This document shows, one piece after another, positions 43,432 through 64,000 of a DNA stretch of 64,000 bases (position 1 is the first letter of the stretch; every line of letters starts with the position of its first letter). Origin of the DNA: Neorhizobium tomejilense (GTDB taxonomy: Bacteria; Pseudomonadota; Alphaproteobacteria; Rhizobiales; Rhizobiaceae). The stretch lies in contig PVBG01000028.1 of the NCBI GenBank assembly GCA_002968845.1, positions 1 to 64,000 on the forward strand, written 5' to 3'. Below the pieces are notes generated by a model. That model saw only the letters and a list, made by a program, of their open reading frames with translations. It ran no database searches and was not told the DNA's origin. A program made the translations under genes and the position numbers.

Positions 43432-43631
43432 TCGATTCCGTCCCTTCGCATGCCACGCGTGGCCACCGACTTCACCAGATCAAGGGCATGACCCCGTCAC
43501 TGCTCAACCTGCCACAGGGCTGCGCCTTTCGCGAACGATGCGAGAAGGCGACACCCGAATGTCTGGTCGCACCCGAACCGACGCCGTTGCCGGGCGGGAG
43601 ATCGGTGCGTTGCTGGAATCCAGCTCTATGA
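43402..43631 (+). other. Detached C-terminal coding part of the DppD-type ATPase
   Basis: In the frame ending at TGA 43629-43631 the sequence reads [20 protein letters not shown], then LLNLPQGCAFRERCEKATPE and CWNPAL, the usual C-terminal domain of DppD/OppD. It lacks its own start and belongs to the upstream ATPase gene. Confidence 0.85.
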
Positions 43632-44656: not shown

Positions 44657-44658
44657 CC

Positions 44659-45906: not shown

Positions 45907-45913
45907 TCGAGGA

Positions 45914-47484: not shown

Positions 47485-48369
47485 TCACCCCATGCGCTCG
47501 GAGGCATAGGAACCCGGGCTCGCCGGGAAGACGACGGTGCGATGTCCGTTAATGAAGGTGCGGTGGTGGATATGGGCGTGGATGGCGCGCGCCAGCACCT
47601 GGCTTTCGACGTCGCGGCCGAGAGAGACGTAGTCATCCGGAGACTGCGCATGAGTGACGCGCACGGTGTCCTGTTCGATGATCGGACCTTCGTCGAGATC
47701 GGCGGTGACGTAATGGGCCGTGGCGCCAATCAGCTTTACGCCACGTTCGAAAGCCTGCTTGTAGGGATTGGCGCCCTTGAACGACGGCAGGAAGGAATGA
47801 TGGATGTTGATGATCCGGCCGGACATCTTCTGGCACATCTGATCGGACAGGATCTGCATGTAGCGGGCAAGCACGATGAGTTCGGTGCCGGTCTGCCCGA
47901 CGAGGTCCATGATGCGCGCTTCGGCCTCAGGCTTGTTGGCCTCGGTCACCGGAATATGATGGAAGGGGATATCGTGATTGACCACGACCTTCTGGTAGTC
48001 GAAGTGGTTGGAGACCACGCCGACGATCTCGATCGGCAGTGCGCCGATCTTCCAGCGGTAGAGCAGGTCGTTCAGGCAGTGGCCGAAACGCGATACCATC
48101 AGCAGGACCTTCTCCCGCTTGGCGGCATCATGCAGGCTCCAGGTCATGCCGAAACGCTCGGCGATAACGGGGAAGCCCTGTGCGAGCTTCGCTTCATTGG
48201 CCTCTTCCTCGGAGATGAAGGAGACGCGCATGAAGAACCGACAGGTGCCGAGGTCGTCGAATTGGGATGAATCGACGATGTTGCAGCCCTGATCGGCGAG
48301 ATAGCCGGAGACCGCAGCGACGATGCCGCGGGTCGACGGACAGGAAATGGTCAAAACATAGGTCTTCAT
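47485..48369 (-). CDS. purU: Formyltetrahydrofolate deformylase
   Basis: The 294-residue protein has an N-terminal ACT domain (VLTISCPSTRGIVAAVSGYL) and the formyltransferase-like catalytic domain (INIHHSFLPSFKGANPYKQA, VTADLDEGPIIEQDTVRVTH), with the catalytic HHSFLPSF motif. It hydrolyses 10-formyl-THF to formate and THF. PurU genes often accompany oxidative demethylases that load C1 units onto THF. It is the last gene of the leftward cyclitol transporter unit, and demethylation of a methoxy group would supply its substrate. Confidence 0.95.
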   Translation of the reverse strand: MKTYVLTISCPSTRGIVAAVSGYLADQGCNIVDSSQFDDLGTCRFFMRVSFISEEEANEAKLAQGFPVIAERFGMTWSLHDAAKREKVLLMVSRFGHCLNDLLYRWKIGALPIEIVGVVSNHFDYQKVVVNHDIPFHHIPVTEANKPEAEARIMDLVGQTGTELIVLARYMQILSDQMCQKMSGRIINIHHSFLPSFKGANPYKQAFERGVKLIGATAHYVTADLDEGPIIEQDTVRVTHAQSPDDYVSLGRDVESQVLARAIHAHIHHRTFINGHRTVVFPASPGSYASERMG

Positions 48370-48483: not shown

Positions 48484-49566
48484 TCAGGCGCGGGATTTCT
48501 TGCGTTGGCGGTGCACGTCGATGACGACTGCCGCGACGATGATCGCGCCCTTGACGATCTCCTGGTAGTAGGCGCCGACCTTGAGGAAAGTGAAGCCGGA
48601 GGTCACCACACCGAGAATAATGGTACCGATTACCGTCCCGGTGATCCGGCCGACGCCGCCGGAGAGCGAAGCGCCGCCGATGACGGCCGCCGCGATGGCG
48701 TCGAGTTCGAAGGAGACGCCCATGTTCGGCTGGCCGGACTGGGCGCGGGCAGCGAGCATGACGCCGGCGAGGCCGGAGAGCAGGCCGGCCACCGCATAGA
48801 CCTTGATCAGGTGCTTGCCGATATCGATCCCCGAGACGCGTGCAGCCTGGCTGTTGGCGCCGATGGCATAGGTGAACTTGCCGTAGCGGGTATAGGACAA
48901 TGCGACGTGGAAGATGATTGCCACGGCGAAGAAGACGATGACCGTTCGCGGGACGGGAAAGCCCCAGAGACTGAAGCTCTGGCCGAGCCAGGCGAAGTTT
49001 TCGTTGAGCAAAGCGACGGGTTGGCCTTCGGTATACCATTTGGCCAGGCCGCGGACTGAAACCATCATGCCAAGAGTGGCAATGAAGGGCGGAATGCCTG
49101 TCTTGGCGATGAGAAGGCCGTTCAGATAACCCAGGAATGCGCCGAGCAGCACGCCGACCAGAAGCGGCCAGAACGGGCTTGAATCGATGAACCAGTCCAG
49201 GCCGAAAGCGGCGTATTCCGGTTGCAGGAAAACGGCCCGAGCATTCAGCGAGGTCTGGGCGAAGCTCGCAGCCACCATGGCGATAAACCCGACCATGGAG
49301 CCGGACGAGAGATCGACCCCGCCGGTGATGATGACCTGCGTCACGCCGACGGCGATGATCCCCGTGACGGCGACCTGCAGGACGATGATGGACAAGCGCT
49401 GCTTGTTCGCCAGAAAGCTTTCGCCCACGACGTACCAGCCGATCACTTCGAAGATAAGGGCGATCCCGATCAGGACGGCCAGGATCGAGAATTCCGGTGG
49501 AAGTCGCCGAATTTTCTTCAAGCCCGTCTTGGAGGTCTCCCCCAGTTCGTTGATGGCATCAGACAT
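48484..49566 (-). CDS. ABC transporter permease, RbsC type
   Basis: The 360-residue membrane protein has about ten hydrophobic segments and the RbsC/BPD_transp_2 signature (GFIAMVAASFAQTSLNA, LNGLLIAKTGIPPFIATLGM). An internal GGASLSGGVGRITGTVIGTI segment is characteristic of sugar and inositol permeases. It forms the channel for the solute bound by the neighbouring binding protein. Confidence 0.94.
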   Translation of the reverse strand: MSDAINELGETSKTGLKKIRRLPPEFSILAVLIGIALIFEVIGWYVVGESFLANKQRLSIIVLQVAVTGIIAVGVTQVIITGGVDLSSGSMVGFIAMVAASFAQTSLNARAVFLQPEYAAFGLDWFIDSSPFWPLLVGVLLGAFLGYLNGLLIAKTGIPPFIATLGMMVSVRGLAKWYTEGQPVALLNENFAWLGQSFSLWGFPVPRTVIVFFAVAIIFHVALSYTRYGKFTYAIGANSQAARVSGIDIGKHLIKVYAVAGLLSGLAGVMLAARAQSGQPNMGVSFELDAIAAAVIGGASLSGGVGRITGTVIGTIILGVVTSGFTFLKVGAYYQEIVKGAIIVAAVVIDVHRQRKKSRA

Positions 49567-49587: not shown

Positions 49588-51141
49588 TCAGCGCGACGCC
49601 AGCTCCATTATCTTGACTTGATCGGCTTCGGCCCTGTCCAGGATGCCTGTGACCCGCCCCTCATGCAGCACGACGATGCGATCACTCATGCCGAGCACCT
49701 CAGGCATCTCCGACGAGATCATGATGATCGCCACACCCTGGCCCGCGAGCTGCGAGATCAGCCGGTGGATCTCGGCCTTGGCGCCGACATCTATGCCGCG
49801 GGTGGGTTCGTCGAGGATCAGGATCTTCGGATTGGTCATCAGCCAGCGACAGATCAGGACTTTCTGCTGGTTGCCACCCGACAGGTTGATGATCGGCTCC
49901 CGCATGTCTGGCGTGCGAACCCTGAGGCGGTTGGCCATGTCGGTGGCCGCCTTCCGCAGCTTTTCCTGCTCTACGAAGCCGAGCTGCACATAGCGCTGTT
50001 GCAGCACCGCCATCTGCGCGTTTTCCTGGATGTCGAGCAGCAGGAAACAACCGGTTTCCTTTCGATCCTCCGTCAGAAACGCCATGCCGTGCGCCATGGC
50101 GACGGACGGCGAGGAGACGGTCAGTTGCTTGCCGAAGAGCTCGATCGTCCCGGAATTTGCGGGCGTCACGCCGAAGATCGTCTCCGCGACGTTGGACCGG
50201 CCCGAGCCGACGAGGCCGGCAAAGCCGAGGATCTCGCCGGCCCGGAGATCGAACGACACGTCGCGGAAGACGCCGTTCAGCGTCAGCCCTTTTACCGACA
50301 GCACGACGTCGCCGATCTGCGCCGGTTCTTTCGGGAACATCTGGGTGATCTCGCGCCCGACCATCATGCGGATGATGTCTTCGCGGGTCACCTCCGAGGA
50401 ATTGCAGGTCGCAACGTACTTGCCGTCGCGAAAGACGGAGAACTCGTCAGCGATCTCGAAGAGTTCGTTCATCTTGTGGGTGATGTAGATGATGCCCTTT
50501 CCTTCCTCGCGGAGGGAACGGATGATCCGGAAGAGGTGGTTCACCTCCCTCTCGGTGAGGGCCGATGTCGGTTCGTCCATGATGAGGACATCGGAATCGA
50601 AGGATACGGCCTTGGCGATCTCCACCATCTGGCGGTTGGCCACGCTGAGCTTGCCGACCTTGATTTCAGGATCGATCTCGATCCCGAGGCGCTCAAACAG
50701 CGCGTCCGTCCGACGGTTCATTTCGGCATGGTCCACGATACCGAAACGTCCGAGCGGCTCACGGCCGATCCAGATGTTTTCCGACACGGTCATGGGCGCC
50801 ATCAGATTCAGTTCCTGATGGATCATCGCGATTCCGTTCTGAAGCGCGTCGAGCGGATTCTTGAGGCGGATGTCGACGCCGCGCAGTTTGAACGAGCCGC
50901 TGTCGGGCGTGTAGATGCCCGCGAGGATCTTCATCAGCGTGGACTTGCCGGCGCCGTTCTCGCCCATGAGGGCATGCACCGTCCCGCGTTTCAGCTTCAA
51001 CTGCACGTTGTCCAGAGCAACGACCCCTGGAAATTCCTTGCGCACGTCCTCGACTTCGAGAAGATATTTGCTGCCCGGAACAGCGCCGCTCCTGCGAACG
51101 GCCTCCATGGTCTGGGGACTGATGATGCGTTCAGCCGACAT
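49588..51141 (-). CDS. ABC transporter ATP-binding protein, RbsA type (two ATPase domains)
   Basis: The 517-residue protein has two tandem nucleotide-binding domains. The first carries Walker [13 protein letters not shown], signature [15 protein letters not shown] and Walker [14 protein letters not shown]. The second carries a variant Walker [15 protein letters not shown], signature [14 protein letters not shown] and Walker [20 protein letters not shown]. This duplicated layout is that of RbsA/XylG. ATG 51141 follows GTGGAGGAGGACCACC. Confidence 0.95.
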
Positions 51142-51204: not shown

Positions 51205-52128
51205 TCAATTCTTCGTCGTGAACTTGGTCATGTTTTCAGGCGTCACGAGCTGGAACGGGATCCAGACCTTGGCGTCCACCTTCTCACCCTTGGCGAGCTT
51301 TATGGCAGCGGCGACCGCACCCGAGCCCTGGCCGAAGGCATCCTGGAACACGGATACATCCAGATTGCCTGCCTTCATGTAGGCGAGCGCTTCCTGGGTG
51401 GCATCGATGCCCGCAACGACCACGTCCTTCATATTCCAGCCGGCGGATTTCATGGCGTTGATCGCGCCAATCGCCATGTTGTCGTTGTTGGCGATGACAG
51501 CCGCCGGCTTGTGACCGGCCGCGATCCAGTTGGTCATCAGGTCCTGCGCCTTGACCGGATCCCATACGGCGGTCTGCTGGTCGAGGATCTTGATGCCCTT
51601 GCAGTCCGGCGTTGCGATCACGTCGTGGATGTCCTTGGTGCGCTGGACGGCAGCCTGGTTGGCAAGATCGCCGACCATGACAAGGATATCGCCCTTGCCG
51701 CCCAGGAGGCGACATACTTCCTTGGTCTGCAGCGTGCCGGACTGAACTTCGTCGGAGGCGACGAATGCCCCCTTGGGGCCAAGCTTGTCGACGTCTGCCG
51801 GCATCCGGTTGACGTAGACGATCGGGATGCCGGCATCGTTCGCCAGCTTCGTCATCGGCGCCGTTGCCGTGGTATCGACGGCATTGACGATGATCGCATC
51901 GGCCTTCGAGGCGATGAAGTTCTGGATCTGGGAAAGCTGCTTCTGAACGTCATCATCCGCGATTTCGATCTGGACCGGCTGTTTTGCGTCGGCCGCAGAC
52001 TTCTCGATACCCTTGCGCAGAACGGTCAGGAACGTGTCGGAATTGGCCATGGACACGCCAATATTGCCTGCATAGGCGCTCGATGCCATCAGAACGCCGA
52101 GCGCGGCACCCGCCAAAAATTTCTTCAT
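51205..52128 (-). CDS. Periplasmic sugar/cyclitol-binding protein, RbsB/MocB-like
   Basis: The 307-residue protein has a signal peptide (KKFLAGAALGVLMASSAYA) and the type-I periplasmic-binding fold (NIGVSMANSDTFLTVLRKGI, SKADAIIVNAVDTTATAPMT, AVIANNDNMAIGAINAMKSA). The sequence resembles the ribose/inositol group, which includes the rhizopine-binding protein MocB. This, together with the mocDEF genes, is why I infer a cyclitol ligand. It starts at ATG 52128, inside a longer frame. Confidence 0.9.
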   Translation of the reverse strand: MKKFLAGAALGVLMASSAYAGNIGVSMANSDTFLTVLRKGIEKSAADAKQPVQIEIADDDVQKQLSQIQNFIASKADAIIVNAVDTTATAPMTKLANDAGIPIVYVNRMPADVDKLGPKGAFVASDEVQSGTLQTKEVCRLLGGKGDILVMVGDLANQAAVQRTKDIHDVIATPDCKGIKILDQQTAVWDPVKAQDLMTNWIAAGHKPAAVIANNDNMAIGAINAMKSAGWNMKDVVVAGIDATQEALAYMKAGNLDVSVFQDAFGQGSGAVAAAIKLAKGEKVDAKVWIPFQLVTPENMTKFTTKN

Positions 52129-52240: not shown

Positions 52241-53053
52241 TCAAAGTCTGTCCCGGATCAGCTCCATGCTATTGCGGACCATCGCTTGCGGATCGCTCGA
52301 TGCGTGAACGGATGACGCGAACGGTTCGAACGAGAACGGGCCGGGATAACCAGCGTCGACGAGCGCACGGATTTGACCGATATTGTCCAGCCGGTCCCGT
52401 GCCGTCACCATCACGCGATGCGGGTCGCGCATGGCGTCGATTCTGACGTCCTGGTCATCGACGCCTGAAATGTGCACCAGCCCCGTCAAATCCGGGAAGA
52501 TATCCGGCTCGCCAGCCAGCACGTGGTGGAAAGTATCATGAACCAGCTTGAAGCTCTGGCGGCCATTGATCGCGGCAATCGCTTCCGCTGCTTCTTTCTT
52601 GGAGCGAAGCGAGCAGATCTGGAAACCGAGCGGCTCCACGAGGCCGATGAGGTTATTGGCCTGCAGGATGGGTTTCAGTGCCTTGAGCGCAACGCGCAAA
52701 TTCCCCTGACGCTCACCCTCCAGCCTGCCGCTTCCGTCGTTGACGGGTACCAGAACCAGAGCTTTTGCGCCGCAGGCAGCGGCATAAGCGGCCAGTTCCC
52801 GGGCTTCCGCTTCCCGTTCCGGCGTCCATTCGTTGAAGCGCTGCAGGGCATTGATCGAAATGATCTCGGTTCCGCGCGTCTTTGCCAGGTCGCGGACCGT
52901 CTCGGGTGAAGTCCCGTCGAGTATGGCATTACCCGCAAGATCGTTGCGGATTTCGAATTGCCGAACACCGAGCGACATGCCCAGTTCGAAAAAAGCGCCG
53001 AGCGGCATGTGTGGCGCAACCATGTGGTTGAGCGCGAAGGTAAGCGCGGCCAT
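52241..53053 (-). CDS. TIM-barrel sugar isomerase/epimerase, IolI-like
   Basis: The 270-residue protein has the xylose-isomerase-like TIM barrel with metal ligands in order: GLVEPLGF (E), KLVHDTFHHV (D), LVHISGVDDQ (H) and FSFEPFA (E). These match 2-keto-myo-inositol isomerase IolI of the inositol pathway; SINALQRFNEW also parallels the IolI region. It may isomerise inososes from cyclitol breakdown. It is the first gene after the regulator in the leftward unit, preceded by GGGAGAACTC, with palindromes upstream. Confidence 0.85.
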   Translation of the reverse strand: MAALTFALNHMVAPHMPLGAFFELGMSLGVRQFEIRNDLAGNAILDGTSPETVRDLAKTRGTEIISINALQRFNEWTPEREAEARELAAYAAACGAKALVLVPVNDGSGRLEGERQGNLRVALKALKPILQANNLIGLVEPLGFQICSLRSKKEAAEAIAAINGRQSFKLVHDTFHHVLAGEPDIFPDLTGLVHISGVDDQDVRIDAMRDPHRVMVTARDRLDNIGQIRALVDAGYPGPFSFEPFASSVHASSDPQAMVRNSMELIRDRL

Positions 53054-53139
53054 GAGTTCTCCCGAAGTTTGGCGCGGCCGGCTTTCCTCCTCCGTCCCGC
53101 CGAACGAAGTCATCAGGTTTCGTGGCGTTGGTCAAAGAA

Positions 53140-53210: not shown

Positions 53211-54242
53211 TCAGATGTTTTCCGGCACATAAATTTCGAGCGGCAGGAAAGTCTGGCCTGGCGCCGTCGCGGGGCCGGTATCCACCGCCTCGACCATCAG
53301 CTGGACGAGTTCGCGGCACAGATTGGCAAGCGGTGTCGCAATCGCCATGGTCACGATCTCATCGGCCAGCGCTGCGCGGGAAATTGGCGTCAGTTCGTTG
53401 ACGACGATAACATGCTTGCCGCCGAGCTTTTCTTCCCGGATGGCGGAAATGGCGCCTTCCATTCCGCCGCCGGCAACATAGAAACCCACAAGATCCGGAT
53501 GGCGGTGCAACAGATCCAGCGTTGCCTCGTGGGTGATTTCCACCGTTTCCAGGTTCACCAGCGTGTCGAGAACCTCGAAGTCGGGGGCGTGTTCGCGGAA
53601 GTAGGACCGAAAGCCGATCTCGCGCAATTCGTGACCGTGAAAGCGGTGACTGCCGACGAAAACAGCCACTTTCCCAGGGTTTTTTGCAGCCCTCGTGATC
53701 ATCCAGGCTGCCGTCCGGCCGGCCTTGCGGTTGTTGAGCCCGACATAGCCCTCGCGGATGCCGGAGGCGAAATCGGACAGGAGTGAGAATACCGGGATGC
53801 CCTTTGCCTTCAGTTCTTCCGCTGCCACCGTCAGGGCCGGATAGTCCGGGGATGTCATGGCGACCGCCTGATTCCTGACACCTACCTCTCTCAGCTTGTC
53901 GGCCAATTCGCTCGGTGTCTGGTTGGCGCAGAATTCGATCTGCGCCACGCCGCGAATGCCGGGATGATTCTGGACGGCGATCTCGAGTTCCCGCTTGAAG
54001 CTCTGGTAGAAATGGTGGTTGGGCTTCTGCAGGATGAAGCCCAGCCGGTATTGCGGCAGCCCCTCGAACACTCGCTGCCGCAGCAATCCTACGGCATGGA
54101 AGCCAATCTCGTTTGCCGCGTCATAGACGCGCCGCGCCGTGTCCTCGCGCACCTTGTGCCGCCCGTTCAGCACGCGGTCCACGGTTGCGACGCTCACTCC
54201 CGCAGTCTTGGCCAGATCCGCGATCGTCGGTCTTGATCCCAT
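53211..54242 (-). CDS. LacI-family transcriptional regulator of the cyclitol locus
   Basis: The 343-residue protein has the LacI HTH (TIADLAKTAGVSVATVDRVL) and a periplasmic-binding-like effector domain (YRLGFILQKPNHHFYQSFKR, VGFYVAGGGMEGAISAIREE). The hinge has KVREDTARRVYDAANEIGF. ATG 54242 follows GGGAGGAACAG. It sits between the two divergent halves of the locus and may control both through the palindromes upstream and downstream of it. An inosose or cyclitol could be the effector. Confidence 0.93.
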   Translation of the reverse strand: MGSRPTIADLAKTAGVSVATVDRVLNGRHKVREDTARRVYDAANEIGFHAVGLLRQRVFEGLPQYRLGFILQKPNHHFYQSFKRELEIAVQNHPGIRGVAQIEFCANQTPSELADKLREVGVRNQAVAMTSPDYPALTVAAEELKAKGIPVFSLLSDFASGIREGYVGLNNRKAGRTAAWMITRAAKNPGKVAVFVGSHRFHGHELREIGFRSYFREHAPDFEVLDTLVNLETVEITHEATLDLLHRHPDLVGFYVAGGGMEGAISAIREEKLGGKHVIVVNELTPISRAALADEIVTMAIATPLANLCRELVQLMVEAVDTGPATAPGQTFLPLEIYVPENI

Positions 54243-54414: not shown

Positions 54415-55506
54415 ATGGCGAGGACAGCGGCAAAGCGTGACTACAGCCTGCTTGGGCGCGATGCGCAGGCGGCGGTGGCCAATGGGCTCGCGGCGGCGCA
54501 GTGGTATCATACCGAGGTTCCGCGCAAGCAGATGAAGGAATTGATGAAGCGGGAGGATGGGCCAGCCCTCCGGGACACGGCGATCTGGCTTGGCTGTATA
54601 GTCGTCTTTGCAGCGCTTGGCATCTATTTCTGGGGCAGCCTCTGGGCGATCCCTTTCTTCCTCGCCTACGGCGTGTTCTACGGGTCCGCCTCGGACAGCC
54701 GCTGGCATGAATGCGGTCATGGCACGGCATTCAAGACGATGTGGATGAACAACTTTGTCTACCAGATCGCCTGTTTCATGATCATGCGCAATCCGGTGAC
54801 CTGGCGCTGGAGCCATACCCGGCACCACACCGATACGGTCATTGTCGGCCGGGATCCGGAAATCGCGGTGATGCGTCCGCCGGATCTCCTGCGGCTGATC
54901 CTCAATTTGTTCGGCCTGCTGGATGCCTGGCATGCGGTGATCGACATGGTCCGAAACGCGTTTGGCGTCATCAGCGCCGAAGAGAAGATCATCATTCCGG
55001 AGACGGAGCAGCCGAAGGCGATCCGCGTCGCGCGCATCTGGCTCGCGATCTATGTGGCGACCGTTGCGCTCGCGATCGCCCTGAATTCGATCCTGCCGCT
55101 GATGCTGATCGGCATGCCGCGCCTTTATGGTGCCTGGCACCATGTCATGACCGGCCTGTTGCAGCATGGCGGCCTTGCCGACAACGTCACCGACCACCGG
55201 CTAAACAGCCGCACGGTCTACGTGAACCCGATCAGCCGCTTCATCTACTGGAACATGAACTATCACGTGGAGCATCACATGTTCCCGATGGTGCCCTATC
55301 ACGCGCTGCCGAAGCTGCACCAGACCATCAAGGACGATCTGCCGGCACCCAATCCGTCGATCCTCGACGGTTATCGCGAGATGATCCCTGCCTTCCTGCG
55401 CCAGCTCCGAAACGAGGATTATTTCCTGAAGCGCGAGTTGCCGCCGACGGCAAAGCCCTATCGCGAAGACTTCCATAGCGACGCAATGGCGCCAGCGGCG
55501 GAGTGA
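54415..55506 (+). CDS. mocD: Membrane-bound desaturase-family oxygenase (MocD-type)
   Basis: The 363-residue protein has the di-iron histidine boxes of the fatty-acid desaturase/AlkB-hydroxylase superfamily: WHECGHG, HTRHHTD and HVEHHMFP, with further HH in AWHHVMTG. There are several transmembrane segments (LGCIVVFAALGIYFWGSLWA, LYVATV-like region near 205-225). In rhizobial rhizopine catabolism MocD is the oxygenase that works with the MocE ferredoxin and MocF reductase, and it is thought to remove the O-methyl group of 3-O-methyl-scyllo-inosamine. The ribosome site GGAGGAGATCT is excellent. Confidence 0.88.
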   Translation: MARTAAKRDYSLLGRDAQAAVANGLAAAQWYHTEVPRKQMKELMKREDGPALRDTAIWLGCIVVFAALGIYFWGSLWAIPFFLAYGVFYGSASDSRWHECGHGTAFKTMWMNNFVYQIACFMIMRNPVTWRWSHTRHHTDTVIVGRDPEIAVMRPPDLLRLILNLFGLLDAWHAVIDMVRNAFGVISAEEKIIIPETEQPKAIRVARIWLAIYVATVALAIALNSILPLMLIGMPRLYGAWHHVMTGLLQHGGLADNVTDHRLNSRTVYVNPISRFIYWNMNYHVEHHMFPMVPYHALPKLHQTIKDDLPAPNPSILDGYREMIPAFLRQLRNEDYFLKRELPPTAKPYREDFHSDAMAPAAE

Positions 55507-55550: not shown

Positions 55551-55865
55551 ATGAGCACCTGGATCGACGTCTGCGACAAGGACGAGATCGACGAAGAGGA
55601 TGTCATCCGCTTCGATCACGCCGGCAAGAGCTACGCCGTCTATCGCAGCCCGGAAGACAGTTTCCACGCGACCGACGGACATTGCACGCACGAGAATGTC
55701 CATCTGGCCGATGGTCTGGTGATGGACGATATCATCGAATGTCCGAAGCACAACGGCCGCTTCAACTACAAGACCGGCCAAGCCAAGGGCGCGCCCGTCT
55801 GCGTCAACCTCAAGACTTATGCGGTCAAGGTCGATGGTGGCCGCGTCTTCATCCAGGTCGGCTGA
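55551..55865 (+). CDS. mocE: Rieske-type 2Fe-2S ferredoxin (MocE family)
   Basis: The 104-residue protein has the Rieske cluster ligands CTHENVHLADG and ECPKHNGRFN (C-x-H and C-x2-H). It matches the size and layout of MocE-family ferredoxins, which pass electrons from MocF to MocD. The ATG at 55551 follows GGAGGAGAGCCC. It is the middle gene of mocDEF. Confidence 0.92.
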   Translation: MSTWIDVCDKDEIDEEDVIRFDHAGKSYAVYRSPEDSFHATDGHCTHENVHLADGLVMDDIIECPKHNGRFNYKTGQAKGAPVCVNLKTYAVKVDGGRVFIQVG

Positions 55866-55866
55866 G

Positions 55867-57087
55867 ATGGGTGACAAAGGCATGGTGATCGTCGGCGCCG
55901 GCGAAGCGGGCGTGCGCGCGGCCTTTGCCCTGCGGGAGCGGGGTTACCAGGGGACCGTCACGCTGATCGGCGACGAACCGCATCTCCCTTACGAACGTCC
56001 GCCCCTGTCGAAGGGGAGCGAGGAAGCCGGGACCGTCCGGGCGATCGTCGCAAGCGAACGTTTTGCCGAGGCGGGGATCACCTTCCTGCGAGGGCAGCGG
56101 GCTATCTCGCTCGACCTGGCACGCCATGCGCTGCGACTGGAAGCGGGCGAAATACTGTCCTACGAACGGCTGCTGCTCGCAACCGGCGCCGCGCCGCGCC
56201 GGTTTCCAGGCCTTGCCACGAGCGATCGTATCCATGTGCTGCGGACCGTCGAGGACGCGTCCGCCATTCGTCGCCACATGCGGGAGGATGGCCGCGTGGC
56301 CATTCTCGGCGGCGGCTTCATCGGGCTCGAACTGGCCGCGATGGGCCGGAAACTCGGGACGGCCGTCACCTTGTTTGAGGCGCAACCGCGCGTGTTGATG
56401 CGCGGTGTTCCCGAAAAGCTTGCGCTCGCCTTGCAGGCACGGCACGCGGCAGAAGGCGTGGAACTCCTCTGCGGCGTGGGGATCGAGACCATCGCCGATG
56501 GCGAGAGCGGCGTTACCATCGGGTTCGCCGATGGTCGCCGGATCGAGGTCGATGCGGTCGTGGTCGGGATCGGTGCCCAACCCAACACCCGTCTTGCCGC
56601 AGAAGCAGGGCTTGCGATCGACAACGGCATAGCCGTCGATCGCCATCTGGCGACCAGCGATCCGCACATTTTCGCAGCCGGCGACTGCTGCTCCTTTCCC
56701 GTCACCGCCTATGGCGGCCGGCGCGTCCGGCTTGAATCCTGGCGCAACGCACAGGAACAGGGCAGCGTCGCGGCGGCCAACATGCTGGGAGAGGCCGCAT
56801 CCTTCGATGCGGTGCCCTGGTTCTGGTCGGACCAATACGACCTGACGCTGCAGGTGGCCGGCCTGTCCGACGGCGCGACATCGACCGTCGGCCGGACGCT
56901 GTCGCCGGAGGCCGAGATCCTGTTTCACCTCGACGCGGAGGGGCGATTGCTGGCAGCCAGCGGGCTTGGCCCCGGCGGTGCCGTTGCCCGCGACATTCGA
57001 CTGGCCGAAATGCTGATCGCCAGGGGCACGCGCGCCGATCCTGCGGCACTCGCCGATCCTTCCGTCAAACTGAAATCCCTTCTGTGA
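55867..57087 (+). CDS. mocF: FAD-dependent ferredoxin reductase (MocF-type)
   Basis: The 406-residue protein has FAD-binding VIVGAGEAGVRAAFALRERG, an NAD-binding second Rossmann (VAILGGGFIGLELAAMGRKL) and the FAD motif IFAAGDCC. A C-terminal reductase domain follows (LESWRNAQEQGSVAAANMLG). This is the putidaredoxin-reductase-like family that reduces small iron-sulfur proteins. It begins one base after the mocE stop, so reductase, ferredoxin and oxygenase form one operon. Confidence 0.93.
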   Translation: MGDKGMVIVGAGEAGVRAAFALRERGYQGTVTLIGDEPHLPYERPPLSKGSEEAGTVRAIVASERFAEAGITFLRGQRAISLDLARHALRLEAGEILSYERLLLATGAAPRRFPGLATSDRIHVLRTVEDASAIRRHMREDGRVAILGGGFIGLELAAMGRKLGTAVTLFEAQPRVLMRGVPEKLALALQARHAAEGVELLCGVGIETIADGESGVTIGFADGRRIEVDAVVVGIGAQPNTRLAAEAGLAIDNGIAVDRHLATSDPHIFAAGDCCSFPVTAYGGRRVRLESWRNAQEQGSVAAANMLGEAASFDAVPWFWSDQYDLTLQVAGLSDGATSTVGRTLSPEAEILFHLDAEGRLLAASGLGPGGAVARDIRLAEMLIARGTRADPAALADPSVKLKSLL

Positions 57088-57112: not shown

Positions 57113-57907
57113 ATGAAATCCAACCGTCCCACCGTTGCCGATATCCTGGCGCTCAAGGGCAAGCGCCAGCTCAGCATGCTTCGTGTCGTCACGCTCGAGG
57201 AGGCGGAAGCCGCCGACAAGGCCGGGATTGAAATGGTCTCCGTGCCGCCAGCGCTCCTGGGGCCTGCGTTCCGCGAGGTGGCGCCAAGTGTCTTTGCCGT
57301 GCCGGGGCTCGAATATGGCGACTTCGTCACGACGGAGGAATATCTGCGGGGGGCCTTCAAAGCGATGCGCGCCGGTGGCGACGCCGTCTATTGCGCGGCG
57401 AACCTCCGGATCATCCGCGAGCTCAGGGACGAGGGCATTCCCGTCTGCAGCCATGTCGGCCTCATTCCCTCGAAGGCGACCTGGACCGGTGGCTTCAAGG
57501 CGGTCGGCAAGACCGCCGACAGCGCGATGGCGATCTGGAATGCCGTCAAGGCCCTCGAGGAGGCTGGCGCCTTCGCCGCCGAGATCGAGGTGGTTCCTGC
57601 CGAAGTTGCCTCGCTGATCAGCGCCCGGACGTCTCTCTTCATGATCTCGATGGGGGCGGGCGCCGGTTGCGACGCGCAATATCTCTTTGCCGATGACGTG
57701 CTCGGACAGAACCGCGGGCATGTGCCCCGACATGCGAAGACCTATCGCAACTTTGCCGCAGAGTTCGACCGCCTGCAGCACGAGCGCATCGCAGCGTTCC
57801 GGGAATTCCGTCAGGACGTCGAGAGCGGAGCCTATCCGGCGGAGCCGCACAATGTCGGCGTGGCGAGCGAGGAACTTGCCCGCTTCCGCGATATGATCAA
57901 CGGCTGA
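57113..57907 (+). CDS. PanB-like 3-methyl-2-oxobutanoate hydroxymethyltransferase homologue
   Basis: The 264-residue protein is a KPHMT/PanB-family TIM barrel: VADILALKGKRQLSMLRVVT, SHVGLIPSKATWTGGFKAVG, KALEEAGAFAAEIEVVPAEV, and SMGAGAGCDAQYLFADDVLG, where the family has GAG..CDGQ. PanB transfers a hydroxymethyl group from 5,10-methylene-THF. Many catalytic positions differ from housekeeping PanB (for example the usual KGHMGLTPQS-type segment), so it may use another acceptor. Lying in the mocDEF operon, it may consume the C1 unit released by demethylation. Confidence 0.8.
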   Translation: MKSNRPTVADILALKGKRQLSMLRVVTLEEAEAADKAGIEMVSVPPALLGPAFREVAPSVFAVPGLEYGDFVTTEEYLRGAFKAMRAGGDAVYCAANLRIIRELRDEGIPVCSHVGLIPSKATWTGGFKAVGKTADSAMAIWNAVKALEEAGAFAAEIEVVPAEVASLISARTSLFMISMGAGAGCDAQYLFADDVLGQNRGHVPRHAKTYRNFAAEFDRLQHERIAAFREFRQDVESGAYPAEPHNVGVASEELARFRDMING

Positions 57908-58103: not shown

Positions 58104-58952
58104 TTATTGCGGTGTCATGTCGAAGCCGAACCACTTCATGGACAGCTTCGTCGTCGTCCCGTCCGCCTTGGCGGCGGCGATCGCCTCGTCGAATTTCTGC
58201 TTGAGCCCAGTATCCCCCTTGCGAAGACCGACCGAGCTGCCGGCGCCGAGGAAACCACCCTGGAAGCGAGGGCCGACAATCGTCAGGTCGCTGTTTGTCG
58301 GCTTCTGCACGGCGGTCATCAGGTAACCCATTGATGCCATGACAAAATCGACGCGGCCGGAAACGAGATCGAGGTCATGCTGTTCCGTGGTCTTGTACTC
58401 GCGAACCTGCACGACGCCCTTCAGATATTCGTCGATAAAGCGTGCGGCGATCGAGGCCGTCTGGACGCCAACCGTCTTGCCCTGCAGCAGCGGCTTCAGC
58501 TGTTCGACAGCCTTGCGGGCGCCGGCCTCATTGGAGGCGAGCGAAAAGAGTTCGTCCTTCATGGGCATTTTTGCCAGGGGGCTGTCCTTGAGCGTCGCGA
58601 AGGACTGGCCGGTGCTACCGTAGGACATGGAGAAGTCGATGACTTCCTTCCGCTTTTCCGTGGCCGACATGCCGGCCATGATGGCATCGAACTTGCCGGC
58701 ATTGAGGGCAGGGATGATGCCGTCGAAAGCTTGCGCGACGAACGCGCACTTGATTTTCATGCGCTCGCAGAGGTTCTTGCCAAGTTCGATGTCGTAGCCG
58801 TCCAGCGTGCCGTCCGGTCGGGTCAGATTGTAAGGCGGAAAGGCGCCCTCCGTGGCGATGACGATTTCCGTTTTGTCCTGCGCCGCGGCGGCCGTCGCCA
58901 TCAGCGTCATGGCGGTGAAAGCAGCGGCGATTGCCGTGTTGACGAATTTCAT
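58104..58952 (-). CDS. Polar amino-acid ABC transporter binding protein (family 3)
   Basis: The 282-residue protein has a signal peptide (MKFVNTAIAAAFTAMTLMAT, then AAAQ) and the family-3 fold (EIVIATEGAFPPYNLTRPDG, FDAIMAGMSATEKRKEVIDF). It is the last gene of the leftward operon and is the second binding protein in it. Two binding proteins sharing one permease pair would broaden the solute range. Confidence 0.93.
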   Translation of the reverse strand: MKFVNTAIAAAFTAMTLMATAAAAQDKTEIVIATEGAFPPYNLTRPDGTLDGYDIELGKNLCERMKIKCAFVAQAFDGIIPALNAGKFDAIMAGMSATEKRKEVIDFSMSYGSTGQSFATLKDSPLAKMPMKDELFSLASNEAGARKAVEQLKPLLQGKTVGVQTASIAARFIDEYLKGVVQVREYKTTEQHDLDLVSGRVDFVMASMGYLMTAVQKPTNSDLTIVGPRFQGGFLGAGSSVGLRKGDTGLKQKFDEAIAAAKADGTTTKLSMKWFGFDMTPQ

Positions 58953-58994
58953 CTGTCAGTTCCCTCTCTTTGTTTGGGTAGAATGTCGAGCGGC

Positions 58995-59777
58995 TCAGCC
59001 GCTGATGAATTTCCGGAAGCGCTCGGACTTCGCGTTGGTGAACATGTCCTGCGGCCGGCCTTCCTCCTCGATCGCGCCCTGGTGCAGGAAGATGACCCGG
59101 CTCGAGACATCACGCGCGAAGCCCATTTCGTGCGTGACGACCAGCATGGTCCGGCCTTCTTCGGCAAGCGCCCGCATGACACGCAGCACTTCGCCGACAA
59201 GTTCCGGGTCAAGCGCCGAGGTCGGCTCGTCGAACAGCATCACCTTCGGCCGCATGGCGAGCGCGCGGGCGATGGCGGCCCGTTGCTGCTGCCCGCCGGA
59301 AAGATGCGCCGGATAGTGATTGCGCTTTTCGGCAATGCCAACCTTGGCAAGCAGAGCTTCCGCCTCCTCCAGGCATTCGGCGCGCGAACGCTTCTGCACG
59401 TGCAGAGGCGCTTCCATGATGTTTTCGAGCACGGTCTTGTGGGACCAGAGATTGAAGCTCTGGAACACCATGCCGAGTTCGGAGCGGATACGCTCCACCT
59501 GCCGGCGGTCGGCAATGCGGCTCTTGCCGGAGCCGGTCGGCTTCATGCGGATGGTTTCGCCGGCAACGGTGATTTCGCCGGCATCGGGTGTCTCCAGCAT
59601 ATTGATGCAGCGGAGCATGGTAGACTTGCCAGAGCCGGAGGAGCCGAGGATCGAGACGACCTCGCCCTCGCATGCTTCCATGTCGATACCCTTCAGCACT
59701 TCGATGGGACCGAAACTCTTGCGAAGCCCGCGCACGGTGATCGCCGCCGGTGCGGGTGGATTGGTCGAACGCGTCAT
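58995..59777 (-). CDS. Polar amino-acid ABC transporter ATP-binding protein
   Basis: The 260-residue ATPase has Walker [15 protein letters not shown]-loop [13 protein letters not shown], signature [17 protein letters not shown], Walker [16 protein letters not shown] and switch [13 protein letters not shown]. The sequence is HisP/GlnQ-like. ATG 59777 overlaps the stop of the permease gene by four bases. Confidence 0.95.
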
Positions 59778-60499
59778 CTAGTGGCTCCCGTGGACGTGCT
59801 GGGCAAGGCCGCAGGCTGGCGCAGGTGCGGGCTCAATTGATACTCGGCGAGGGCGACAAGCCGGGTGAGGATGAAGTTGATGGCGAGATAGATGGCGCCG
59901 GCGACGACGAAGACTTCGATCGCCCGATAGGTCTCGGAGATCAGTTTGGCCGCGACGCCGGTCACCTCCATGATGGTGATGATCGAGGCAAGCGACGTCG
60001 CCTTCACCATCGAGATCATCTCGTTGGAATAACCGGGCAGAGCCTGGCGGATCGCGAGCGGCAAGGCAATGCGCCGAAAGGCCATGAAATGGGACATGCC
60101 GCAGGCGCGCGCCGCTTCGATCTGGCCGAACGGGACCGAGAGCAGGCCGCCACGAATGATTTCGGCGGAATAGGCGGCGGTGTTCAGCATCAAGGCGATG
60201 ACAGCGCACCAGTAGGGATCGCGCAACACCACCCACAGCATGCTCTGGCGGACATCACGGAACTGGCCAAGGCCGTAATAGATCAGGAAGATCTGGACGA
60301 GCAGTGGCGTGCCGCGGAAGACGAAGATATAGGCCCTCGCGAACCAGTCGAGCGGCAGGATACCGGACAGCCGGCTGAGTGCCAGGCCAAGGGCCAGGAA
60401 CACGCCGAGTACGATTGCGCTCGCGGCAAGCTGCAGCGTCAGCGGTACGGCAGCAATCAGGCTGAGGAAGGTTTCCCAGAGAAACGGCAGATCCATCAA
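59774..60499 (-). CDS. Polar amino-acid ABC transporter permease (HisM type)
   Basis: The 241-residue membrane protein has five predicted transmembrane segments and the family motif [20 protein letters not shown]. The EAA loop reads [20 protein letters not shown]. It pairs with the permease encoded upstream and shares a four-base overlap with it. Confidence 0.94.
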
Positions 60500-61215
60500 C
60501 CCCTCCTGACGCCGCGCGTGAAGCGCTTTTCGCTGAATTGCAGGAGACCGCCGGAAACCGTTGAAATAGCCAGGTAGACGGCAGCGGCGATGACATAGAA
60601 ATTAAAGGGCAGGCCGGTGGAGCCGGCGCCGATCTGCGACTGCCGAAGGAGCTCGACGACGCCCGTAACCGAAACCAGCGCGGATTCCTTCAAGACGACC
60701 TGCCAGACATTCCCCATGCCGGGAATCGCGTGGCGCAGCGTCAGCGGCGCGAGGATCCTGCGAAACCGCAGGGAGCGCGACATGCCGCAGGCGATCGCCG
60801 CCTCCAACTCGCCGGAATGGACCGCTCGATAGGCGCCGCGAAAGACCTCCGTCTGCTGTGCGCCGGAGGTAATGCCGACAGCGAGTGCGCCGGCCAGGAA
60901 GCCCGGAAACCCGATGAAGCCTTCAGCGCCGAATAACCTGCCGATCGCTGTCACGGCAGCACTGCCGCCGAAATAGAAGAGATAGATGACCAGAAGATCG
61001 GGTATGCCGCGCAGAACGGTGGTGTAGAAACCCGCGATCCCGCGCGTCAGCGGGCCGCCCGAAACTTTTGCCCAAGCACCGAAGACGCCGATCACCGCAC
61101 CGATCGCGAAACCGGCGATGGCGATCAGGACGGTCATGACGGTGGCCGCGGCGAGCGCCATGCCCCAGCCATTCGGGCCGGTTCCGATCAGATCCAGTAT
61201 TGTCGGCTGGTTCAT
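60496..61215 (-). CDS. Polar amino-acid ABC transporter permease (HisQ type)
   Basis: The 239-residue membrane protein has the family segment FYTTVLRGIPDLLVIYLFYF and the EAA loop ELEAAIACGMSRSLRFRRIL. ATG 61215 is chosen because GAGG lies eight bases upstream; in-frame ATG 61230 has no ribosome site. It is coupled to the second permease. Confidence 0.93.
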   Translation of the reverse strand: MNQPTILDLIGTGPNGWGMALAAATVMTVLIAIAGFAIGAVIGVFGAWAKVSGGPLTRGIAGFYTTVLRGIPDLLVIYLFYFGGSAAVTAIGRLFGAEGFIGFPGFLAGALAVGITSGAQQTEVFRGAYRAVHSGELEAAIACGMSRSLRFRRILAPLTLRHAIPGMGNVWQVVLKESALVSVTGVVELLRQSQIGAGSTGLPFNFYVIAAAVYLAISTVSGGLLQFSEKRFTRGVRRG

Positions 61216-61309
61216 GGAGACCTCATCCATATGGAGGTTTGTTCGTATCCAGACGCCGGCGTCACGGCACGGGGACGCAACTTTCGTACCCCGCGCCGGG
61301 TCCACAGGG

Positions 61310-62155
61310 TCAGAACGATGGCGTCAGGTCCAGCTTGCTCCATTTTTCGGAGAGCTTTTTGATGACGCCATCCGCGGCCGCCGACTTGATGGCTGCGTCG
61401 AACTTCTCCTTCAGATCGGTCTCGCCCTTGCGCATGCCCATGGCGACCTCCGTCGCCAGCATGGCGCCCTTCATCAGCGGTCCGGCCATCGCCAGATCCT
61501 CGTTCCCAGGTTTGGCAAGTGCGGTGGTGCCGTAGACGCCGCTATCGAAACCGGCGTCGATGCGGCCGGCCTTGAGGTCGAGATCGCGTTCGCCGGAATT
61601 CTTGTAGGTGCGAACGGTGACGTTTTTGCCGAAATAGGCATTGATCAACTGCTCTTGGCTGGTCGATTGCACGACGCCGATCGTCTTTCCGGAGAGAACA
61701 CCGCCGATCGTCTTCATCACTGGATCGGCCTTGTCCTTGTCGTTGAGGCTCAGTCGTTCGCCGGTCATCGGCAGCTTGCTGATCGGGCTGTCCTTCAGCG
61801 TGATGAAGGTCGCCACGCCGCTTGCATAAGGCACCGTGAAATCGACGACTTCCTTTCGCTTTTCGTTGATGCCGAGCGTCATGATAAGATCGAACTTGCC
61901 GGCATTGACGCTGGGGATCATGGCGCTCCATTCACCGGCGATCAGCTCGCATTCGACCTTGGCGCGCTGGCACAGGTCGTTGATGAGGTCGATATCGAGT
62001 CCGGTCAGGTTGCCCTTGGAATCCAGTGCGTTCCATGGCGGAAAGGCGCCTTCGATACCGACCTTTACACGGGTCCAGTCCTTGGCTTCTGCGCCCGGCA
62101 GCATGATGGTGAGAGTGGCAGCCAGCGCGGCCGCCCAGAGTTTCCCGGTTTTCAT
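61310..62155 (-). CDS. Polar amino-acid ABC transporter binding protein (family 3)
   Basis: The 281-residue protein has a signal peptide (KLWAAALAATLTIMLPGAEA) and the family-3 fold (KVGIEGAFPPWNALDSKGNL, FDLIMTLGINEKRKEVVDFT, LKAGRIDAGFDSGVYG). It precedes the permeases and is probably the main binding protein of the system. It shares the overall fold and start motif with the second binding protein at 58104. Confidence 0.93.
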   Translation of the reverse strand: MKTGKLWAAALAATLTIMLPGAEAKDWTRVKVGIEGAFPPWNALDSKGNLTGLDIDLINDLCQRAKVECELIAGEWSAMIPSVNAGKFDLIMTLGINEKRKEVVDFTVPYASGVATFITLKDSPISKLPMTGERLSLNDKDKADPVMKTIGGVLSGKTIGVVQSTSQEQLINAYFGKNVTVRTYKNSGERDLDLKAGRIDAGFDSGVYGTTALAKPGNEDLAMAGPLMKGAMLATEVAMGMRKGETDLKEKFDAAIKSAAADGVIKKLSEKWSKLDLTPSF

Positions 62156-62196
62156 GTCGTTGTTCCCTTATTTGTTCGTTGTGCTGGAGAGGAAGG

Positions 62197-63879
62197 TCAT
62201 ACTCCTTCGAGTGCAAGCACCGAGCAGGCTTGTCGGAGCACGGAGAGAAGCCGGTTGCGCGTCTGGCGCCCATGAACCGTGAAGAACGCGATATCGGCAT
62301 GCCCTTCCGGCAGGGCGGCCAGTTCGCGAAGCCCTGATAGCGACGGCCAGGCCGGATGCGGAAGCGCATTGTCGTGATGGAAACGGTCACCGTACGTGTA
62401 GTTCAACGGAACGAGAAGGCGGGAGGCCTGCCGAAGGCGGTCGTTGATGATCTCGGCGCGACCCGGATCGGTTTCCTGCTGCGCGGCCCGGTTGATCGCC
62501 TCGGCACGCCGGCGCAGTTCATCCACCACCAATGTCAGGCCGTTCATATCCATCCGCCCCGCCAGATCCGCGGCCAGGCCGTCGAGTTCATGTTTGAGAG
62601 ATGCTGCGTAGGCGGTGTAGTCGAGCGGCAGAACGCGGGCATCGAGCAATTCACCGAGCACGCGTAACACGATCTCGGTGTCGCGCTGAAGATTGGCCGG
62701 ATCGATATGCTCTTCCGTATCGTGCGGCGTGTGCCACCACCACCCGAGCGCCGTCAGCATCTTCACAGGCCCTGGGGGCTGATGGCTGAGGCTGCCGAAC
62801 ATCGAGGGAATACCGACGCCCCAGAAGGACTGGTCGGCAGCGCGCCCGTGACGACGGCCGCGATGCACCTGGCCGGTCACCGTTTCGACGGCCCTTGCCG
62901 CGACCGCCTTCAATTCGTCGATGACGGTCGAATTCGTCAGGATGTCCGCGCCTGCACCGCCGGTGGAATCGACATTCACATGCGCCACGCAGCGCTGTTC
63001 CAGCTCATCCCAATATTCGTCCGCGTACCAGGCGGAGCCGGAATAACGGCCGTGGGAATGGCCGGACCAGAAGCAGATGCGCAGGCCCCGCTGCCAGTTT
63101 TCGCGCCGCTCGGCCAGGAGGCGCGCGGCCTCCAGCATCGTGGCGTTGGCTCCACCATTGTCCATCACGCCGTAATGCCAGGTATCGTGATGGCCGGAAA
63201 ACAGGATGAAAGGTGCATCCGGCCGGTTTCCCGGGAAAAGCTCCGCGACCAGGATAGGCGTCTTGCGCCAGCCCGTACCCACCTCGGTCGTCAGGCGGGC
63301 GACAGGCGCCTTGCCTGCGCGGCAGGCCTGACGGAGCCGTGCGCCGTCGTCGTGGGCGATCGTGCAGATCGCGGTCCTTGGCAGCTGCTTGCGGGTATGT
63401 TGCGACGGACTGCCCCAGACAGGCGAGACGCACATTTCGTAAAGATGTTCGTTGGGGCTGACATGAATCTGTCCAATCGCGCCGCGGGCACTTGCAAGGG
63501 CCGCGACGTCTTCGGTCGCGATGCCGTCGACAAGGATGATGTGCCCCTCGACATCGATCCCCTCCAAATCGGCTTCAGCGCCTTCTGCGACATAGATGAC
63601 TTCCGCCGAGATGCCTTCTCCAGGCGTCGAAACCGACATGGAATGGGTGATGCAGCGGACAGCGTTTCCACCGATTTCGACCGCTGCGCTGCCCGGCAGG
63701 CTAATATAGGCGTCGTGCAGGAGAAGCTCGGTTCGATAGCCATAAGAGGCTATCTGCCTTTCCAGATATTTAAAGCTTTCCAGCTCTTCCGCCGTGCCCG
63801 AGAGTTTCACCCGTTTGCCAAACTCGCGGATGTGGCCCATCAGGATCTGGCGGTCGGGCTGGAGTGGCGCGTCAGACAT
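62197..63879 (-). CDS. M28-family metallopeptidase with PA-like domain
   Basis: The 560-residue protein has the M28 zinc site: LFSGHHDTWHYGVMDNGGAN (first H and D, bridging D), then SGHSHGRYSGSAWYADEYWD and HVNVDSTGGAG, and a late histidine near WWWHTPHDTEEHID. The N-terminal half has a protease-associated-type insertion. No signal peptide is visible. It likely cleaves peptides or amide-linked amino acids taken up by the neighbouring transporter. The ATG overlaps the upstream partial gene by eight bases. Confidence 0.88.
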   Translation of the reverse strand: MSDAPLQPDRQILMGHIREFGKRVKLSGTAEELESFKYLERQIASYGYRTELLLHDAYISLPGSAAVEIGGNAVRCITHSMSVSTPGEGISAEVIYVAEGAEADLEGIDVEGHIILVDGIATEDVAALASARGAIGQIHVSPNEHLYEMCVSPVWGSPSQHTRKQLPRTAICTIAHDDGARLRQACRAGKAPVARLTTEVGTGWRKTPILVAELFPGNRPDAPFILFSGHHDTWHYGVMDNGGANATMLEAARLLAERRENWQRGLRICFWSGHSHGRYSGSAWYADEYWDELEQRCVAHVNVDSTGGAGADILTNSTVIDELKAVAARAVETVTGQVHRGRRHGRAADQSFWGVGIPSMFGSLSHQPPGPVKMLTALGWWWHTPHDTEEHIDPANLQRDTEIVLRVLGELLDARVLPLDYTAYAASLKHELDGLAADLAGRMDMNGLTLVVDELRRRAEAINRAAQQETDPGRAEIINDRLRQASRLLVPLNYTYGDRFHHDNALPHPAWPSLSGLRELAALPEGHADIAFFTVHGRQTRNRLLSVLRQACSVLALEGV

Positions 63880-64000
63880 CTCGCTTCTCCCGAATGTCGG
63901 GCTGAACGTCATCGGGAATCGGATTGATGAAGGGAGTACCTTCGAGCCGCGCCGTAAAGTCGGCTTTCGCTTCTGCGATCAGTTCCGGCTTCAGGATGAG
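63872..64000 (-). CDS. M20/AbgB-like amidohydrolase, C-terminus (cut by window edge)
   Basis: The minus strand reads LILKPELIAEAKADFTARLE, GTPFINPIPDDVQPDIREKR and DV before TGA 63874-63872. The ELIAEAKADF...PFINPIPDDV pattern is typical of the end of AbgB/M20D amidohydrolases, such as the one at 45914. Only 42 residues are in the window. It is the first visible gene of the leftward amino-acid transport operon. Confidence 0.72.
   Translation of the reverse strand, partial: LILKPELIAEAKADFTARLEGTPFINPIPDDVQPDIREKRDV

Follow-up and report, generated by a model that had tools for sequence, protein, structure and literature searches.

A PanB-fold protein lacking the PanB metal site is encoded beside oxygenase genes in many rhizobia and related bacteria

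PanBL, a PanB-fold protein of Neorhizobium tomejilense, belongs to a clade distinct from PanB which is widespread in many rhizobia and related bacteria, where its gene is located beside oxygenase genes. The likely role of these oxygenases is the removal of methyl groups from plant sugars. PanB transfers the one-carbon unit carried by methylene-tetrahydrofolate (methylene-THF) to a metal-bound keto acid; FolD makes 10-formyl-THF, and PurU releases formate and frees THF. We propose, tentatively, that PanBL is a PanB paralogue which makes no ketopantoate and loads the formaldehyde arising from demethylation onto THF ahead of FolD and PurU, a role that we regard as quite possible and still short of probable. 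The role of PanBL is undescribed in the open-access literature matches listed, the fold family itself being known. The stretch of DNA analysed, referred to as the window, comprises 64,000 nt (contig PVBG01000028.1, positions 1 to 64,000).

Locus organisation and substrate

The window contains two divergent gene runs (Table 1), with mocD, mocE, mocF and PanBL read from one strand and the LacI-family regulator, the TIM barrel protein, the binding protein, ATPase and permease of a sugar ABC transporter and, last, PurU from the other. PanBL starts 25 nt past the mocF stop codon and its ORF is preceded by an AAAGGA motif, while the start assigned to mocE, chosen by reading the sequence, is the ATG behind GGGGAGGAG. 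A MocE-family ferredoxin, a desaturase-type oxygenase and a ferredoxin reductase occur in a single run, the combination by which we define a MocDEF-type locus. The first-pass annotation of this DNA had described a PanB-family protein as the fourth gene after mocDEF and PurU as the last gene of the divergent unit, and both descriptions are borne out by the ORFs and family matches; membership of PanBL in a demethylation-type operon is likewise supported. The gene order is far beyond chance, as mocD, mocE and mocF were detected in 78, 78 and 77, respectively, of the 80 closest loci; these are the best 80 among 495 matches and do not represent independent observations. ORF translations read by eye indicate that 41717-47380 of the window encodes an ABC transporter for oligopeptides along with peptidase-like proteins, and that 58104-63912 encodes ABC transporter components for polar amino acids along with one peptidase-like protein.

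Table 1. Features of the PanBL locus in the window.
Feature	Position	Strand	Evidence
PurU, formyltetrahydrofolate deformylase	47485-48369	-	TIGR00655 334.1 bits, cut-off 285.95
Sugar ABC transporter permease	48484-49566	-	ORF; annotation of relatives, no profile scan
Sugar ABC transporter ATPase	49588-51141	-	ORF; annotation of relatives, no profile scan
Sugar ABC transporter binding protein	51205-52128	-	ORF; annotation of relatives (substrate-binding protein), no profile scan
Sugar isomerase-like TIM barrel protein	52241-53113	-	PF01261 83.7 bits
LacI-family regulator, divergent from mocD	53211-54242	-	PF00356 49.3 bits, PF13407 109.3 bits
mocD, membrane di-iron oxygenase, fatty-acid-desaturase family	54415-55506	+	PF00487 127.4 bits; HECGH, HTRHH and HVEHH histidine boxes in translation
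mocE, MocE-family Rieske ferredoxin	55551-55865	+	TIGR02377 168.8 bits, cut-off 136.15
mocF, ferredoxin reductase	55867-57087	+	PF07992 238.5 bits, PF14759 77.9 bits; start read in sequence
PanBL, PanB-fold protein without PanB metal site, 264 aa	57113-57907	+	PF02548, alignment, residue counts

MocDEF removes an O-methyl group, and the substrate in the window is expected to be an O-methyl inositol, MocDEF function being predicted from family membership. The rhizopine mocDEF genes of S. meliloti and rhizobia belong to the same mocD, mocE and mocF families as those in the window. Rhizopine loci carry mocR, however, which in the window is replaced by a LacI regulator and a ribose-type ABC transporter, suggesting that the substrate is possibly an O-methyl inositol other than rhizopine. 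Where plasmids of S. meliloti and Phyllobacterium carry mocR- and mocA-like genes, PanBL and PurU directly follow mocF. iolG is located directly downstream of PanBL in several loci, and PanBL often has iolG, Gfo/Idh or TIM-barrel isomerase genes as neighbours.

According to passages of PMC10107442, mocC and mocDEF take part in the catabolism of rhizopine, which induces the mocD promoter, and passages of PMC3538637 report that fixV-like LacI genes adjoin mocDEF and suggest inositol derivatives as substrates. Both articles name mocDEF; panB, purU and hydroxymethyltransferase have 0 occurrences in their full text, from which the word stem demethyl is also absent. The accessible portion of PMC12857756 holds no passage on PanB or PurU. 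Among the open-access matches listed, a coverage that leaves aside subscription papers, no PanB-like protein linked with rhizopine or moc genes was found, and pairing ketopantoate hydroxymethyltransferase with rhizopine gave no open-access match; nor was an open-access article on PanB active-site residues found.

Sequence, predicted structure and distribution of PanBL

PanBL matches PF02548 with 138.5 bits (gathering cut-off 28.7), a match which covers profile positions 78-259 only, the last two thirds, and it scores below both NCBIfam PanB cut-offs, with 101.5 against 207.55 bits for TIGR00222 and 123.2 against 272 bits for NF001452. PF02548 was the sole family returned by a Pfam scan at E 0.001, in which no match to a Fae/Gfa-type family was observed. 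Across 398 genomes of the phylum, PanBL proteins score 160-482 bits, the 160-bit one being partial, compared with at most 133 bits for all others. A single branch with support of 100/100 splits PanBL (52) from PanB (14) in a tree of 66 representatives, for which no root was inferred and in which long branches leave details within the PanB side unsure. PanBL is distributed in Alphaproteobacteria, with the addition of two betaproteobacterial records (L012, L017).

Residue conservation was compared in an alignment of 121 PanBL sequences, 119 of them distinct and many close to one another, with 18 PanB sequences, reduced to 17 ordinary ones for the conservation comparison by dropping the odd intermediate L149; D45, D84, K112, E114, H136 and E181 are given in E. 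coli PanB numbering. D45, D84 and E114, which we take to be the Mg2+ ligands of E. coli PanB, and K112, which presumably holds metal and keto acid with them, are present in 17/17 ordinary PanB sequences and 0/121 PanBL. Also lost is the PanB 48-67 segment, 20 residues belonging to the keto-acid half, for which 112 of the 121 PanBL sequences have no residue and nine have one to four. In contrast, H136 and E181, the latter presumably serving PanB as the base that acts on its keto acid, are retained in 121/121 PanBL, as are D209 and numerous C-terminal-half glycines in general. The N-terminal half of PanBL retains 4 of 22 PanB-conserved columns and the C-terminal half 17 of 29. Other residues are new and fixed, E157 being found in 121/121 PanBL and 1/18 PanB (the odd L149) and H207 in 121/121 and 3/18, respectively. 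The kept H114 and E159 are found in all 121 PanBL and D187 in 120.

The view of PanBL as a PanB homologue other than the housekeeping enzyme, which the first-pass annotation had put forward, is thus supported by the alignment and by the scores below cut-off. The difference that it located around SHVGLIPSK is confirmed in part, since Q142 is lost there, but H136, G138 and P141 are kept and the larger change lies upstream, in the N-terminal half. A degenerate pseudogene was ruled out by the open frame and by 30 columns conserved at ≥97% over the 121 sequences; one PanBL relative, in genome G035, is listed with an internal stop. The PanB-like protein at L149:8978-9847 is midway between PanB and PanBL, keeping D45 and K112 with D84C, E114Q and a new Glu at 179, and its gene adjoins a PF04116 oxygenase gene.

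The AlphaFold2 model of PanBL has a mean pLDDT of 83.8, with residues 119-126 poorly predicted. Over model residues 5-249 it aligns with E. coli PanB (1m3u) at Z 27.9 for 235 residues with an rmsd of 2.6; the next unrelated fold is at Z 14.8, and many of the nearest folds after PanB are aldolases and lyases. VIA-align of the model lists PanB as the closest relative, a listing in which the absence of others excludes nothing. As modelled, PanBL has the barrel of PanB, in which half of the active site has been remodelled, and the position of H114 and E157 on strands of the model suggests that a pocket is retained.

No PF02548 protein other than PanBL was found in its own genome (G000; completeness 99.99%), in which 0 matches to PanC (PF02569) or PanD (PF02261) were obtained. 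The first-pass annotation held that a sole panB which complements a panB mutant should be read as a pantothenate gene; PanBL is indeed the sole PF02548 protein found, yet a pantothenate role does not follow from this because the genome has no PanC or PanD match. With no match to an ordinary PanB, PanC or PanD, N. tomejilense should need external pantothenate. Within the genus, full-length PanB (333-352 bits) is present in 16 of 57 genomes, all 16 of which have PanC, the total with PanC being 17, whereas PanBL (126-139 bits) is present in eight, five of them without full-length PanB and without PanC; short PF02548 fragments in G010, G041 and G046 were counted neither as PanB nor as PanBL. PanBL distribution is therefore independent of the pantothenate genes. 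PanBL also has oxygenases and not panC for neighbours. Housekeeping PanB was rejected as an identity for PanBL by the low NCBIfam scores, the lost metal residues, the lack of PanC and PanD matches and the distribution in the genus, and we conclude from these sequence comparisons that PanBL is no pantothenate enzyme. Many public plasmid records label PanBL 3-methyl-2-oxobutanoate hydroxymethyltransferase, several with a pantothenate-synthesis GO term, and this database label looks like a systematic misannotation.

Oxygenase and PurU neighbours

In 113 of the 121 loci, a gene for an oxygenase of one of three unrelated families is found no more than 8 kb from PanBL, the nearest being of the mocD type in 90, the sterol-desaturase type in 17 and the PhyH type in 6, with mocD also present in nine of the loci scored as sterol-desaturase type. 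The remaining eight comprise two contig ends and six loci with none of the three oxygenases (L012, L133, L141, L159, L170 and L171), among which PurU lies 114 nt away in L012, mocE and mocF are present in L171, mocE is 7.4 kb distant in L133, and L159 is 13.6 kb from mocDEF. For part of the loci the gene calls relied on ORF length and on GC by codon position, and those of L163, L164 and L170 contain errors. On Bradyrhizobium plasmids a sterol-desaturase-family oxygenase, a Rieske protein and a reductase accompany PanBL, and related sterol-desaturase-type oxygenase genes adjoin it in L137, L140, L168 and L173. The PhyH-type Fe/2-oxoglutarate oxygenase of six loci was detected with Pfam in L165, L167, L169, L172 and L174 and with tblastn in L166; a DeoC/LacD-type aldolase gene adjoins PanBL in two of these, L169 and L172, the Pfam scan covering L169. 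In L165, L166, L167, L169 and L172 the PhyH set includes a ribose-type ABC transporter, ribokinase, RbsD and PanBL, the substrate being perhaps a methylated pentose.

Oxygenase type switches at least four times on the tree (44 labelled rows, with L136 omitted and L019, which has both oxygenases, scored as mocD). The three families and these switches suggest that PanBL is tied to the oxidation step and not to one oxygenase. The partners are of inositol type (iolG) in some loci and of pentose type (ribokinase/RbsD) in five, which favours a step common to different skeletons. It is thus likely, judging from the neighbourhood, that PanBL serves a product shared by the exchanged oxygenases, for which the methyl carbon set free in these oxidations is the most evident candidate.

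A sample drawn evenly from the family (101 genomes, roughly one per genus) contained 31 mocD and 36 PanBL matches; when these were paired by eye, 23 mocD lay within 3.1 kb of PanBL and eight did not, suggesting that PanBL is dispensable for some mocDEF. Thirteen PanBL of this sample are without mocD, nine of which lie no more than 8 kb from a gene of the sterol-desaturase or PhyH type; the rest are L171 with mocE and mocF only, G500 at 13.6 kb from mocDEF, L175 at a contig end and L170 with none. Operons with a mocD-type oxygenase were also observed in L158, L160, L161 and L162, with no PanBL, PurU or FolD found nearby. The PanB control loci sample PanB neighbours hardly at all, 15 of 18 being shorter than 4 kb; among the long ones, L148 and L150 have no oxygenase and L149 has one.

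PurU occurs in 29 of the 89 loci examined; FolD was found in the flanking sequence of seven, each of which also has PurU. In 20 of 78 loci with room, PurU is directly 3' of PanBL on the same strand within 300 nt, and S. meliloti, Agrobacterium and Mesorhizobium are among those in which it directly follows PanBL. Its placement is otherwise at the far end of the divergent run in the window, on the other strand beside PanBL in L012, and between mocF and the sterol-desaturase-type oxygenase beside PanBL in L173. No PurU or FolD occurs within 10 kb in any of the six PhyH-linked loci. In the even sample PurU lies within 10 kb of five of 36 PanBL, compared with 0.1-0.2 expected from gene number and genome size. 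Genome-level counts, made by eye at E 1e-60, gave a PurU match in 16 of 27 PanBL genomes (that of G521 partial and under cut-off) and in 50 of 74 others; none was found in the other 11 PanBL genomes, seven of which were scored as lacking PurU from absence in the match list. The N. tomejilense genome encodes two PurU above cut-off, one being that of the window, and one FolD above cut-off which lies elsewhere, no FolD being seen beside PurU among the window ORFs. The pairing of PanBL with PurU claimed in the first-pass annotation therefore stands as a recurrent association but not as an obligate one, the latter being rejected by the 5/36 frequency and by the lack of raised genome-level co-occurrence. 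The link to PurU supports a one-carbon reading and is insufficient by itself.

Possible roles of PanBL

In the pathway that we propose, the ABC transporter would import an inositol-like substrate bearing an O-methyl group, which MocDEF would oxidise to a hemiacetal and so to formaldehyde. PanBL would join this formaldehyde-level carbon to THF, yielding 5,10-methylene-THF in what would be the one-carbon/folate half of the PanB reaction reversed, without a metal-bound keto acid. FolD would then convert methylene-THF to 10-formyl-THF and PurU, where present, would produce formate and free THF. Action on the one-carbon/folate part alone is the simplest reading, since the keto-acid and metal half is lost and much of the other half is kept. 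Disposal of the methyl carbon by PanBL and PurU, as envisaged in the first-pass annotation, would be retained, with PanBL placed before FolD and PurU and not as a second sink beside PurU. The wider proposition, that PanBL arose from PanB minus the keto-acid half as a THF-dependent formaldehyde-activating enzyme, or one transferring the hydroxymethyl group of the hemiacetal to THF, and acts as a general capture part for desaturase-, sterol-desaturase- and PhyH-type demethylases, is a doubtful possibility.

Comparable routes are described in the accessible parts of several articles. The nicotine MABO-FolD-PurU system (PMC3891541) also passes demethylation carbon via methylene-THF, FolD and PurU but differs in that the oxidase itself is said to form methylene-THF; in the same source, involvement of P. 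putida J5 panB in nicotine catabolism concerns another route and is explained via pantothenate synthesis. Fae, with H4MPT, and Gfa, with glutathione, speed condensation of formaldehyde with its carrier (PMC8879981), as proposed for PanBL, whereas for PanBL the only Pfam match is PF02548 and the proposed carrier is THF. Condensation of formaldehyde with H4F is described as spontaneous in PMC8879981 and, in the passages of PMC7073904, as very slow in vivo and too slow for growth, with an unknown enzyme left open. The latter considered PanB as a promiscuous catalyst, and an E. coli strain living on formaldehyde-THF condensation grew no differently once panB and ltaE had both been deleted, suggesting that the activity, if real, was gained by PanBL, E. 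coli PanB showing no such side activity. Points against a one-carbon role are the 6/121 loci without an oxygenase, the 8/31 mocD without PanBL nearby, the proximity of PurU to 5/36 PanBL only, the 11/27 PanBL genomes with no PurU match and the lack of PurU and FolD near the six PhyH-linked PanBL. Retention of E181 counts against a simple formaldehyde-THF condensation, in which no keto-acid base is needed.

The same residue, as its equivalent in PanBL is suited to proton abstraction, is among the features consistent with the main rival to a one-carbon role, a lyase, aldolase or isomerase acting on the post-oxidation skeleton, a keto-inositol or keto-sugar, with the kept H114 and E159 and the new E157 and H207 as acid-base groups. 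We rate this only slightly below the one-carbon role, and it agrees with the aldolases and lyases that follow PanB among the nearest folds, with the frequent iolG, Gfo/Idh and TIM-barrel isomerase genes and with the aldolase gene adjoining PanBL in L169 and L172. However, occurrence of the same clade in inositol-type and ribokinase/RbsD-type operons makes a single skeleton substrate unlikely, and known iol enzymes would probably take most demethylated products without an extra step. Tight operon linkage combined with loss of the metal residues could also reflect a non-catalytic protein with formaldehyde, folate or an oxygenase as its binding partner and a protective or regulatory function in the pathway, although invariance of H114, E157, E159 and H207, near-invariance of D187 and the pocket apparently kept in the model render this unlikely.

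The fold, with its close match to 1m3u, and the kept H136 and E181 would suit a hydroxymethyltransferase that draws its one-carbon unit from methylene-THF and uses as acceptor a 2-oxo acid other than that of PanB, as suggested in the first-pass annotation. That suggestion is not supported, in view of the disappearance of the metal ligands and K112 from 121/121 PanBL, together with the missing 48-67 segment and the few N-terminal columns left; a 2-oxo-acid acceptor appears unlikely, and we give an enzyme of this kind a decidedly small chance. That PanBL is the panB of N. tomejilense, as its status as the only PF02548 protein of the genome and the annotation of its relatives in public records might indicate, is extremely improbable and close to refuted, given its NCBIfam scores, its lost metal residues and the association of PanB with PanC in a genus where most PanBL genomes have neither.

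These findings would call for a new name for a widespread protein family that now bears the label of a vitamin enzyme. If formaldehyde loading onto THF is indeed the role of PanBL, it would fill a published gap, formaldehyde-THF condensation being too slow unaided for real flux in the passages of PMC7073904. PanBL would then be a part for synthetic methylotrophy, and its activity would suggest how rhizobia handle the formaldehyde expected from methylated inositols such as rhizopines.
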